From NCBI RefSeq assembly GCF_003387615.1, contig NZ_QUNS01000003.1, forward strand, positions 1 to 64,000: 64,000 nucleotides of DNA, in the 5' to 3' direction. Shown piece after piece: positions 1 through 48,796 of the stretch; within the stretch, counting starts at the first letter, position 1, and every line of letters begins with the position of its first letter. The notes under the pieces are model-generated. The model saw nothing but the letters and a program-made list of their open reading frames with translations. It searched no databases and was not told where the DNA came from. A program made the position numbers and the translations under genes. The stretch is from Tenacibaculum gallaicum (lineage in GTDB: Bacteria; Bacteroidota; Bacteroidia; Flavobacteriales; Flavobacteriaceae).

Positions 1-87
1 TATTATTATAATCAAGAAAGACCACACCAAAGTTTAAATGGTGTGCCTCCTAATATTTTTAACCAAAATTGTCAACGAATTAGTTAA
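1..87 (+). mobile_element. C-terminal end of an IS3/IS481-like transposase (cut by the window edge)
   Basis: Frame 1 is open from the window edge to a TAA at 85-87 and encodes 28 residues including the stretch QERPHQSLNGVPPNIF. The (N/Q)ERPHQSLxxxxP pattern is the usual last segment of the DDE (rve) integrase core in IS3- and IS481-type transposases, so an insertion sequence or its remnant lies just left of the window. Only the tail is visible, so neither completeness nor the exact IS family can be judged, and no terminal inverted repeat could be assigned with confidence. Confidence 0.75.
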
Positions 88-122
88 CCTTTACAATTCC
101 GAGTGATGGCGGGAAACCGTTA

Positions 123-159
123 GGTTTCTTCTTTCGTTGCACTTCAGTTCGAAATGACG
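123..159. repeat. Short repeat of the GTTCGAAATGAC family
   Basis: The segment starts GGTTTCTTC and ends GTTCGAAATGACG. It shares the right end GTTCGAAATGAC and a TTTCT-type left end with the copy inside menE (48190-48217). Repeats of this kind, with ATGAC at one end and ATTTCTC or ATTCCT at the other, recur in this window. The exact unit borders are inferred. Confidence 0.55.
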
Positions 160-173
160 TTTTAACAAAGTTT

Positions 174-198
174 GTCATTCCTGCATAGGCAGGAATCT
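174..198. repeat. 25-bp palindromic repeat, left copy flanking the GIY-YIG gene
   Basis: The unit begins GTCATTCCTGC and ends GCAGGAATCT, and contains an internal hairpin ATTCCTGC/GCAGGAAT with a 4-nt loop. Its reverse complement matches 524-548 at 24 of 25 positions. It ends 17 bp before the start codon of the GIY-YIG gene. Confidence 0.85.
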
Positions 199-215
199 CT
201 TAGAGGATATTTAAG

Positions 216-518
216 ATGCACAAAACAAATCATCAATATTATATTTATATCATCACTAATAAAAAAGATGGGGTTTTATATATTGGTGTTACTAACAATC
301 TTGAAAGAAGAATATTTGAACATAAAAACAAACTTGTAAAAGGTTTTTCTTCTAAATACAATCTGGATAAATTAATTTACTTTGAAGAATACCAATTTAT
401 TAAAGAAGCTATAAAAAGAGAGAAAAACATGAAAAAATGGAAAAGAGCATGGAAAATAAACTTAGTAATTAAAGAGAATCCTAATTGGGATGATTTAGCT
501 AAAAACTGGTATAACTAA
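216..518 (+). CDS. Small GIY-YIG endonuclease-domain protein (UPF0213/YhbQ-like)
   Basis: This is a 100-residue single-domain GIY-YIG protein. The GIY-like strand is YYIYIITN (residues 8-15), the YIG strand is LYIGVTN (21-27), then the conserved helix NLERRIFEHK with the catalytic-type Arg, and the tail EAIKREKNMKKWKR followed by NPNWDDL, typical of the small stand-alone UPF0213-like branch. The family cuts or nicks DNA, but the role of the short stand-alone members is not settled. The gene sits alone between two inverted copies of a 25-bp palindromic repeat (174-198 and 524-548), 17 bp before its start and 5 bp after its stop, and next to a transposase tail. That framing suggests gene and repeats move or are maintained as one unit; this is inference. 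Confidence 0.88.
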   Translation: MHKTNHQYYIYIITNKKDGVLYIGVTNNLERRIFEHKNKLVKGFSSKYNLDKLIYFEEYQFIKEAIKREKNMKKWKRAWKINLVIKENPNWDDLAKNWYN

Positions 519-523
519 CAAAA

Positions 524-548
524 AGATTCCTGCCTACGCAGGAATGAC
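524..548. repeat. 25-bp palindromic repeat, right copy flanking the GIY-YIG gene
   Basis: The unit begins AGATTCCTGCC and ends GCAGGAATGAC. It is the inverted copy of 174-198 with one mismatch, starts 5 bp after the GIY-YIG stop and ends 11 bp before the hutG start. Its own arms GATTCCTGC/GCAGGAATg can pair into a hairpin. Confidence 0.85.
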
Positions 549-559
549 AATACAACAAT

Positions 560-1567
560 ATGCTAACAATATTCAACGAAAAAGACATACAAGAGTTTGT
601 TGCGCCACGTGAAGGCGAAACAAAATTAGGCGAGTGCGTTGCGGTTATCGACTCTAAAAAAGACCTACAATCAGAACTTAAAAACTCCTCTGCTTCTTTT
701 GTTATTTTAGGGGTTCCAGAAGATATTGGTGTTCGTATGAATGGCGGAAATGGTGGTGCGCACACTGCTTTTGTTCCTGCTTTAAAATCGTTTTTAAACA
801 CGCAAAAAAACCAATTTATTGATGGAAAAGACATCCTAGTGTTAGGCTATTTAGATTGTTTGGACGATGTATATAGTTTTGATGTTTCTGACAGAGAAAA
901 AGGTGATTTATTAGTAAAAGCAATAGATAAAGAGCTTTCTAAGCTTATCAAAATCATTGTTAAAAGCGGAAAAACACCTATTATCATCGGTGGTGGACAC
1001 AACAATGCTTACGGAAATATTAAAGGGCTTTCTGAAGGAAAGGAGCAACCTGTAAATGTGATTAATTTAGATGCGCATACCGATTTACGTCGTTTGGAAG
1101 AGCGTCATAGTGGTAACGGATTTTCGTACGCCTTACAAGAAGGCTTTATTCAAAATTACTTTATGTTCGGGTTGCATGAAAACTACACGCCTCAATATGT
1201 GTTTGAAATGATTCATGATAGTTTAAACTTAGAGTATAATACGTTTGAAGAGTTAGAAGTGTATCACACTACTTCTTTTAAAGGCGAATTACAACGTGCT
1301 GAAAATTTTATAGAAAATACTCCTTTTGGTATCGAAATCGATTTGGATTGTGTGCAACACTTTCCTAGTAGTGCCATGACACCTAGCGGATTTACACCAC
1401 AGCAAGCACGTAGATTTACACATTATTTTGGAAAGCTACAAAATGCTTCCTATTTACACATTTGTGAGGGAGCCCCAGCAGTTGTTAAAGATGAAATAGC
1501 TAACGGGCAAGTAGGAAAATACATTAGCTACTTAATTTCTGATTTTATTAAGGCTAAGAGTAATTAA
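560..1567 (+). CDS. hutG: Formimidoylglutamase / arginase-family ureohydrolase
   Basis: This 335-residue protein belongs to the binuclear-manganese ureohydrolase family. Metal-binding motifs are GGGHNN (about residues 143-148, in place of the more usual GGDHS), NLDAHTD (about 168-174) and EIDLDC (about 259-264). Flavobacterial members of this branch are annotated as formimidoylglutamases, which split N-formimino-glutamate into glutamate and formamide in histidine breakdown. The ATG at 560 lies only 11 bp after a palindromic repeat and no other hut gene is visible, although the IS remnant suggests that the left neighbourhood was rearranged. Arginase or agmatinase activity cannot be excluded from sequence. 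Metal-site assignment is firm; the substrate is inferred. Confidence 0.8.
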   Translation: MLTIFNEKDIQEFVAPREGETKLGECVAVIDSKKDLQSELKNSSASFVILGVPEDIGVRMNGGNGGAHTAFVPALKSFLNTQKNQFIDGKDILVLGYLDCLDDVYSFDVSDREKGDLLVKAIDKELSKLIKIIVKSGKTPIIIGGGHNNAYGNIKGLSEGKEQPVNVINLDAHTDLRRLEERHSGNGFSYALQEGFIQNYFMFGLHENYTPQYVFEMIHDSLNLEYNTFEELEVYHTTSFKGELQRAENFIENTPFGIEIDLDCVQHFPSSAMTPSGFTPQQARRFTHYFGKLQNASYLHICEGAPAVVKDEIANGQVGKYISYLISDFIKAKSN

Positions 1568-47743: not shown

Positions 47744-48796
47744 CTATAAATTCACTAAATCCAATGTCTTTTTACGTTGGATTTTTTTTGTTTCGGTTTC
47801 TATGAACTCATCCACAAAATAAACTTCTTTTGGAACTTCATACTTAGAGAGTTCTTTAAGCTTTCTTACTTCTTTTAAAGTGACATTCTTTTCCTCTCCT
47901 TCAATTACTAAAATTAGCTTCTCCCCTAACCTTTTATCTGGAATACCGATTACAAAGAAACGGTTAATGATTATTTTAGAGAGTTTTTCTTCTATTTTTT
48001 CTGGATGAAGCTTAACTCCCCCAGAATTAATTACATTATCATAACGTCCTAACCATTCAAATTCAGTTTCTGATATTAAACGAACAACATCGTTTGTAAT
48101 TATTTTTTCTGAAGAAACTTTTAAGGCATCAATAACCAAACAATTACGATTATCTTGGGACAGTTTTACGTTTGGTAATGTTTTATAGTGAGATTTCTCT
48201 CTATCGTTCGAAATGACATTATTTAGCTTTTTAACAGCAATATGTGTTATTGTTTCTGTCATTCCGTAAGTCGTGAGAACTTCAGTGGATAAATTTTGAA
48301 TTGCTTCAATTAAATCGTTTTCCACAACACCGCCACCTACTATGAGTTTCTTTATTTTAGGTATTTCTCCCAAAGAACTTCGTAATTGTAAAGGTACCAT
48401 CGCAGAAAAATCATATTCTTTCTTGATTTCAACTTTAGAAGTTGGAGCGACTACATCAATATTCCACCCTAAGGTAAGTGCCCGTACTAACATCATTTTT
48501 CCTGCAATATAATCAGTTGACAAGCACAATAAAGCTGTAGTATTTTCTTCTAAGTCAAAAAAAGTTCCTGTAGCTTTAGCTGAGTTTATCATAAACTCTT
48601 TTTTTAACGAAATTGGTTTTGGCTTCCCTGTAGAGCCTGATGTTTGCACTACGACAAAATCATCAGCACTAAACCAATCCGATAAAAATTGATATATGGA
48701 ATCGTTTATAGTCTTCGAAAAAGTTAATAATTCATCTTTCGAAGAAAAAGATACTCCGTTCAACTGAAAACTATTATGAAAGGCTAGGTTCTTCAC
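47744..48796 (-). CDS. menE: o-Succinylbenzoate-CoA ligase, short Bacteroidota form
   Basis: The 350-residue AMP-binding enzyme activates o-succinylbenzoate in menaquinone synthesis. Motifs are VVQTSGSTGKPKPISL (about 47-62), STDYIAGKMMLVRAL, YGMTETITHIAVKKL (about 173-187) and the hinge WLGRYDNVINSGGVKLHPEKIE, with the final PKEVYFVDEF and K near TKKIQRKK. Its length is usual for the group. Residues about 194-203 (VISNDREKSH) are encoded by a copy of the GTTCGAAATGAC repeat family (48190-48217), inserted in frame in a surface-loop region. It is last in the menA-MBL-SRPBCC-menC-CPBP-menE cluster. Confidence 0.9.
   Translation of the reverse strand: MKNLAFHNSFQLNGVSFSSKDELLTFSKTINDSIYQFLSDWFSADDFVVVQTSGSTGKPKPISLKKEFMINSAKATGTFFDLEENTTALLCLSTDYIAGKMMLVRALTLGWNIDVVAPTSKVEIKKEYDFSAMVPLQLRSSLGEIPKIKKLIVGGGVVENDLIEAIQNLSTEVLTTYGMTETITHIAVKKLNNVISNDREKSHYKTLPNVKLSQDNRNCLVIDALKVSSEKIITNDVVRLISETEFEWLGRYDNVINSGGVKLHPEKIEEKLSKIIINRFFVIGIPDKRLGEKLILVIEGEEKNVTLKEVRKLKELSKYEVPKEVYFVDEFIETETKKIQRKKTLDLVNL
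48190..48217. repeat. Short interspersed repeat inside the menE coding region
   Basis: The segment GAGATTTCTCTCTATC-GTTCGAAATGAC has the same ends as the intergenic repeats in the first 2.6 kb. It keeps the reading frame of menE and supplies about nine to ten codons. Confidence 0.65.

Follow-up and report, generated by a model that had tools for sequence, protein, structure and literature searches.

Introduction

Ssn, a GIY-YIG enzyme of Neisseria, reportedly cuts only single-stranded DNA, at a dispersed repeat (NTS). The work, by Chenal, Veyrier and colleagues (Nature Communications, 2025), reportedly describes a pairing of GIY-YIG nuclease and repeat, with many Ssn homologues that have sites of their own.

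A group of repeats known by the tag CGTC (also TGTC) is treated by Di Nocera et al. (2013, PMC3733652). In that paper, head-to-head dimers predominate among CGTC-tagged REPs, which include dRS3 of the Neisseriae and the rickettsial RPE-4 and RPE-6 and of which members from Bacteroidetes are listed. The paper presents these REPs as apparently without a dedicated transposase and leaves it possible that other transposases mobilise them; in it, no tyrosine transposase gene is flanked by such repeats and other transposase classes are linked with them only fortuitously. GIY-YIG has 0 occurrences in the main text of PMC3733652. In the REPIN/RAYT system, inverted REP doublets have been proposed as the replicating unit, and the repeat class is found in the flanks of the enzyme gene, according to Bertels and Rainey (2011, PMC3116915). 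Among the literature matches listed, which cover few subscription papers, no title or abstract start joins GIY-YIG with REPs, and the passages of PMC10928387 that mention GIY-YIG, palindromic and 'rayt' do not join GIY-YIG to REPs.

Results

A GIY-YIG gene boxed by inverted tagged hairpins

We analyzed a stretch of 64,000 nucleotides of Tenacibaculum gallaicum (contig NZ_QUNS01000003.1, positions 1 to 64,000), here called the window. Near its beginning lies a unit that we read, with a probability of roughly 75%, as a REP-nuclease cassette, in which the gene of an Ssn-like GIY-YIG endonuclease is boxed by its own head-to-head, outward-tagged REP hairpins. The left TGTC-tagged hairpin occupies 172..201 on the + strand (core unit 174-198; stem ATTCCTGC/GCAGGAAT, loop ATAG), and its inverted copy on the right occupies 521..550 on the - strand (core unit 524-548). 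Both tags point away from the GIY-YIG gene, which runs from 216 to 518 on the + strand (100 codons, stop 516-518). The preliminary description had claimed two near-identical inverted 25-bp hairpin units framing such a gene, and its coordinates, spacing and folding were confirmed: the core units share 24 of 25 bases, the single mismatch falling in the tetraloop, and they lie 17 bp before the ATG and 5 bp after the stop. The inverted repeat extends over 172-201 and 521-550 (93% over 30 nt). In each unit a TGTC tag accompanies a stem of 8 bp closed by a 4-nt loop, within the structure described for CGTC-tagged REPs (CGTC/TGTC tag, stem of 8-9 bp, loop of 4-5 nt). Alone, as DNA on the tag-first strand, each unit folds at -7.7 kcal/mol, and none of 200 shuffles did as well for either unit (z -4.9 and -5.4); on the opposite strand of the left unit, 1 of 200 did. 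The whole cassette, a head-to-head REP pair with the gene inside, spans 172..550 (no strand assigned), with ends that are approximate to the base because at filled sites the repeats are accompanied by a few to ~25 additional bases.

When the whole 3.42-Mb genome was searched for the 25-bp unit with up to 3 mismatches, only two sites were found, both boxing the GIY-YIG gene, and a reversed-pattern control gave 0, so the pair is not a product of chance. With these two copies alone, the repeat is not dispersed in the window's genome as CGTC-tagged REPs are; the pair is thus a REP-like unit, and the term REP in its strict sense applies to the relatives.

No known RNA family reached its gathering threshold over positions 1-1800. 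The flanking hairpins could instead serve the small gene and its operon in transcription or RNA stability rather than be nuclease sites, since short stable hairpins stand on either side of an ORF within an operon and REPs are often discussed as RNA elements. However, the stems lack a T run after them when read along the gene, hairpins of this class are also found as dimers that contain no gene, and the outer GTC tag is kept while the class changes with the protein clade; we therefore consider an RNA role of this kind very unlikely.

The product of the gene has a GIY-YIG domain (PF01541, E 6.3e-18), and Y11, Y22, G24, R32, H36 and E69 are invariant in 23 of 23 aligned sequences, so that the domain, the tyrosines, the central Arg and the Glu in the C-terminal part that mark the GIY-YIG superfamily are all present. 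The Arg and Glu of the motif are as given in PMC1564403. The gene is intact and under purifying selection, with dN/dS of 0.04-0.10 in three comparisons among the hut-site orthologues of the window's genome, G027 and G343. A fold model of the protein has a pLDDT of 93, and neither it nor a domain search revealed a second domain in the 100 residues. The closest solved structures by profile and fold are those of UPF0213-type proteins (PDB 1zg2, 1ywl): 1zg2 was the best match both by sequence profile (E 6.8e-5) and by Foldseek (E 2.1e-3, probability 1.00, 27% identity), a search in which the protein model gave no match at E 0.001 or better; a resemblance to Slx1 was also seen. We know of no repeat association of UPF0213-type proteins.

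By protein, the closest named relatives are those of Tenacibaculum sp. 1_MG-2023 (99%) and T. caenipelagi (96%). We take the window enzyme to resemble the Ssn nucleases of Neisseria, and a relative in N. gonorrhoeae that is 43% identical to it, and that lies flanked by or amid CGTC hairpins, is a candidate Ssn counterpart. Carriage by phages found no support: a search of 50,697 phage records gave 0 matches at E 1e-5, and narrow patterns confirmed no relative of the protein on viral contigs. As in the Ssn family, where a cognate palindromic repeat occurs in the same genome, matching repeats flank the gene and its relatives; these are predicted enzyme sites, and the hairpin repeat is probably the sequence that the enzyme of the enclosed gene recognises. 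Elsewhere in the window's genome, contig C1 holds two more GIY-YIG genes ~6.5 kb apart (L136 and L141), each boxed by a different palindrome class (GTCATTTCGA and GTATCGAGA); the protein match of L136 contains one stop.

An insertion between hutI and hutG

A hutG-like gene of the arginase family follows the cassette at 560..1567 (+); it is the host gene 3' of the insertion and lies outside the cassette. In 78 genomes of the genus, 19 hutG loci were found: three carry the cassette (the window's genome, G027 and G343), one a remnant, one another element, 12 are empty and two are non-comparable (other DNA lies upstream of hutG at 2 of the 19). In the 12 empty loci, hutI ends 1-5 nt upstream of hutG, a gap measured by script at 10 of them and by eye from the sequence at G034 and G341. 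The remnant, in G022, is a decayed gene with one altered repeat adjoining hutG, and the locus of G347 holds a different tagged element together with an apparent right-hand scar of the cassette. The cassette is thus an insertion between two genes of histidine breakdown. The empty sites contain no repeat, so here the cassette did not insert into a copy that was already present. With regard to insertion sequences and MITEs, the cassette has inverted repeats, contains no transposase domain, and shows no target duplication visible by eye at the hut site.

The absence of a repeat from the empty hut site also bears on the idea of a homing-endonuclease-like gene, which would cut an uninterrupted cognate site and be copied in by repair. 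GIY-YIG enzymes include homing endonucleases, and the protein gave a weak PADLOC HEase match (E 0.0011) and a match to a group I intron endonuclease model below that model's cut-off. Nevertheless, the element keeps its repeats on both sides, whereas a homing insertion splits its site, and the 100 residues leave only a single recognisable domain. Homing is, in our judgment, highly improbable.

Filled and empty species fall into one group of seven in the hutG tree (support 100/100), and within it the empty G324 stands among filled species with weak support (81/75), so that gain, loss and allelic exchange are not separated.

A transposase tail beside the unit had been pointed out in the preliminary description. 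Positions 1-87 (+) do encode the C-terminus of a transposase, presumably of IS3 type, by a match to the end of an integrase core that falls below Pfam's cut-off (rve_3, E 3.7e-5), but this piece stands at the first bases of the contig and is a separate insertion outside the unit. It was rejected as a part of the cassette on account of its contig-edge position and of locus L300 (Tenacibaculum sp. 1_MG-2023, 99%-identical protein), where the gap from the hutI stop to the hairpin is 116 bp, too short to accommodate an IS. Between the IS end and the cassette, positions 96..159 (no strand assigned) hold part of a second, different tagged repeat element that ends ...TTCGAAATGACG; by eye, a fuller copy of this type of element lies in the 116-bp gap of L300. 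Single tagged hairpin-like repeats of other classes occur elsewhere in the window at 2574-2599 (-; GTCATTCCGAAC...GGAATC) and 48192-48217 (-; GTCATTTCGAACG...GAAATC), and a perfect, gapless 15-bp inverted repeat at 1689-1718 (AAAAAGTACGAGCAT and its complement) has a terminator-like appearance 3' of hutG.

A second site upstream of hemL, and sites shared between species

A hemL match was present in 70 of the 78 genomes, and a GIY-YIG gene was found upstream of hemL in 4 of the 30 loci examined. The gene is split over two frames in G332, and G060, which belongs to another genus, also has it, flanked on either side by similar DNA. Some hemL sites without the gene carry head-to-head pairs of other classes (by eye). 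The gap upstream of hemL (L270-L299) has the look of a hot spot, several species having head-to-head pairs of differing repeat classes there (by eye).

Orthologous insertions are common to G021, G028 and G035, to G009 and G030, to G214 and G264, and to G015 and G060, the last of another genus. Because sites are so often orthologous between species, movement is rare, and these shared insertions are largely inherited. These shared sites also fit an alternative in which single-stranded DNA in natural transformation or repair is the substrate of the nuclease, the repeats are its sites, and the cassette and the dimers spread through ordinary homologous exchange of the DNA around them rather than moving by themselves; a role of this kind is reported for Ssn, the family member in Neisseria. 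The position of the empty G324 among filled species is what allelic exchange would also give (support only 81/75), and the 43%-identical N. gonorrhoeae relative lies amid CGTC hairpins, a class equated with dRS3 in PMC3733652. On the other hand, since the empty hut site carries no repeat, repeat-to-repeat recombination cannot have placed the first copy there. Moreover, several species have, at different sites, long dimers whose interior is conserved, and these, together with a preference for the head-to-head arrangement (see below), are what a mobile unit leads one to expect. We regard this alternative as a serious possibility that is nonetheless somewhat improbable.

Matching hairpins box related GIY-YIG genes in several phyla

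Boxing by matching tagged hairpins was found for many related GIY-YIG genes, in several phyla. In the 59-genome set, 35 of 89 small GIY-YIG genes had an inverted repeat across the gene with a score of at least 14, compared to 0 of 83 shifted windows; the 89 loci were taken from among the matches listed, with UvrC-length frames and several fragments (L210, L211, L214, L215 and further L202 copies) omitted. Of 80 relatives from named genomes, 73 were far enough from contig ends to be testable, and these had outward-tagged hairpins on both sides in 41 cases (0 of 201 control window pairs), on one side in 24, in other orientations in 3 and none in 5. With no tag required, the flanks held 144 strong hairpins, 107 of them with an outer GTC, and 532 control windows held 32, with 4 outer. 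Among the boxed loci are some from Ignavibacteria, Deltaproteobacteria and Moraniibacteriota MAGs. Of the 80 named loci, at least 10 also occur in the other genome set (for example, L301 = G343 and L303 = G015), and the two sets are therefore not independent.

Among records of a plasmid collection, 12 of 34 matches were examined and 9 of the 12 scored at least 14 (Neisseria, two in Sinorhizobium, Shinella, Aeromonas, Azospirillum, Novosphingobium, Sphingobium and Planktothrix), while the 11 possible controls all scored 8.5 or less; the other three had no strong pair, with nothing in Rhizobium tumorigenes and Photobacterium and a score of 12 in Spirosoma. One plasmid-borne family member, 56% identical, lies at 792-1076 of L246 (Planktothrix agardhii plasmid p1) between a gene for an MmeI-type restriction enzyme and the DISARM gene drmA.

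For 29 close-clade loci, a script called 16 as head-to-head on both sides, one of which (L011) is apparently spurious, and by the script's motif the other 13 were one-sided, in other orientations or without hairpins. Two complete dimers enclose the gene in G021 and G035, where it is not inside a single one and the nearest tags point inward, and in G028 it lies beside one dimer. Upstream of the GIY-YIG gene in L228 and L224, the loop of a tagged hairpin seems to contain a further palindrome, as though a repeat had landed inside an existing one (by eye).

Palindrome class follows protein clade, and the repeat tracks the gene

Within the genus, palindrome class follows protein clade. Seven classes, named after the flanks were seen and then assigned by motif scan, required 6 changes, the minimum possible, on a tree of 49 proteins, compared to a shuffled mean of 32.4 with 0 of 200 shuffles as low; the tree holds the 49 of 89 loci with one label, the 40 unlabelled or over-long ones being dropped, and near-copies inflate tests of this kind. 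The GIY-YIG genes thus show the match of enzyme clade to repeat class that is expected of REPIN/RAYT systems. One genome, G009, has five such GIY-YIG genes, each adjoining its own palindrome class, and paralogues that differ in class within a single genome speak against common inheritance of the surroundings as the whole explanation.

Across 249 genomes of the family (window's genome included), the repeat tracks the gene, imperfectly. All 20 genomes that have a close gene (E<=1e-36) carried it, as did 66 of the 229 without one. Of several thresholds tried in the copy-number and dimer counts, at least 3 copies gave 17 of 20 genomes with a close gene and 27 of 229 without (Fisher p 6e-12), a p-value that overstates the case since related genomes are not independent. 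In the set of 59 genomes, the repeat of the window's class occurred in 20, with up to 27 copies. The preliminary description had asked whether repeats are enriched only in genomes with the gene: they are enriched, but not exclusively, as 11 of the 249 genomes have at least 10 copies and no protein match at E 1e-28.

Gene-free dimers and the search for a transposase

The predominance of head-to-head dimers reported for CGTC-tagged REPs was also seen in the relatives. In the 12 genomes with fully listed places (the partly listed G026 was left out), neighbouring copies no more than 200 bp apart were head-to-head in 17 cases, tail-to-tail in 0 and tandem in 1. At up to 400 bp, with gene cassettes included, there were 20 head-to-head, 1 tail-to-tail and 4 tandem pairs, and looser matching gave one tail-to-tail pair (L080). 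Among dimer regions chosen because neighbouring copies were visible there, the long dimers (n=11, 129-156 bp, most 140-142), compared between species as well as between sites, had an interior in common in 37 of 55 cases (z above 4), and the short ones (n=10, 65-78 bp) did so in 1 of 45. No gene origin of the long-dimer interior was apparent by tblastn (best E 0.08), and no convincing remnant of a GIY-YIG gene was seen in a cluster of repeats in G020 (280,200-281,200), where the best match had E 0.009 over 24 residues.

Another transposase, of the Y1/RAYT type or some other, might move hairpins and cassette in trans, with the GIY-YIG gene as a passenger. Y1_Tnp matches were indeed found in 24 of the 59 genomes, including the window's, and mobilisation by other transposases is left possible in PMC3733652. 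Of the 20 genomes with the repeat, 9 nevertheless proved to be without a match to Y1_Tnp, the one family covered by the search, and these include G021, G028 and G020, which are rich in copies; six of the nine (G001, G011, G020, G021, G022 and G028) are at least 97% complete. Furthermore, the only two copies in the window's genome both box the GIY-YIG gene, a passenger is not expected to match seven palindrome classes clade by clade, and in PMC3733652 such repeats flank no gene for a tyrosine transposase, while their links to other classes are described as fortuitous. Movement in trans is therefore, in our view, very unlikely.

Discussion

The window units and their relatives resemble the CGTC-tagged REPs, as described in PMC3733652, in their TGTC/CGTC tag, 8-bp stem, 4-nt loop and head-to-head dimers, and differ in that a GIY-YIG gene is attached here, whereas no associated transposase gene is reported there. 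The cassette shares with REPIN/RAYT (the REPtron) its layout, with the repeat class flanking an enzyme gene, and its inverted doublets; however, the flanked gene encodes a GIY-YIG enzyme rather than a Y1 tyrosine transposase, and the tag is CGTC/TGTC rather than GTAG. A REP/RAYT-like logic with a GIY-YIG enzyme, as suggested in the preliminary description, was borne out by the match of clade and class, the tracking of gene and repeat over 249 genomes, the head-to-head dimers and the empty sites, which were found at hutI-hutG (12 of 19 loci) and upstream of hemL. A copy number unrelated to the gene and a lack of empty sites, which would have spoken against that idea, were not what we observed.

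Both the window's unit and the Ssn/NTS system, as reported, combine a small single-domain GIY-YIG enzyme with a palindromic repeat, dispersed in the case of Ssn. The window gene is boxed as an insertion with empty sites and without another copy of the repeat in the genome, as read from the sequence. The suggestion that the unit could be an undescribed minimal mobile element is only partly right, because a GIY-YIG and repeat pairing was reportedly described for the Ssn family in 2025. Tagged REPs, too, were already known, from Di Nocera et al. (2013, PMC3733652).

Taken together, our results point to the GIY-YIG gene as the natural partner of the CGTC/TGTC-tagged REPs that were reported without a dedicated transposase. 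From the comparative patterns, a pairing of enzyme and repeat is very likely, and cutting of single strands by the enzyme is likely. The protein would bind its own repeat as a single-stranded hairpin and cut at or beside it. A hairpin-ended single strand might be cut, for example, on the lagging-strand template or in DNA that is taken up, and repair by the host might then cause the dimer, with or without the gene, to be lost, copied or captured at new sites. GIY-YIG enzymes hydrolyse DNA, and to our knowledge they do not form the covalent DNA-tyrosine link used by RAYT enzymes, so rejoining would fall to the host.

We infer that the nuclease may move the unit, and it might spread or prune the repeat, as the preliminary description proposed, although enzyme-driven mobility is, to us, a little short of an even chance: the lack of dispersed copies in the window's genome, the 11 repeat-rich genomes without a close gene and the shared old sites were counted against it. 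More tentatively still, the CGTC/TGTC REPs across phyla might be a GIY-YIG-driven mobile system, in which the boxed hydrolytic single-strand nuclease of ~100 residues (~380 bp) would be the smallest autonomous element and the gene-free head-to-head dimers its non-autonomous derivatives, moving without a transposase by means of cut strands and host repair.

The comparative data tie repeats of the CGTC/TGTC type, class by class, to one small nuclease family, with both filled and empty sites. This tie and these sites open the question to a direct test with a single protein and one 30-nt oligonucleotide. Should the nuclease drive movement, the selfish spread of palindromes would have evolved twice, with unrelated enzymes, and the REPIN lifestyle would have arisen a second time. 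Even without such a role, the pairing would help to explain why the repeats persist and where the nuclease could cut incoming or replicating single-stranded DNA.
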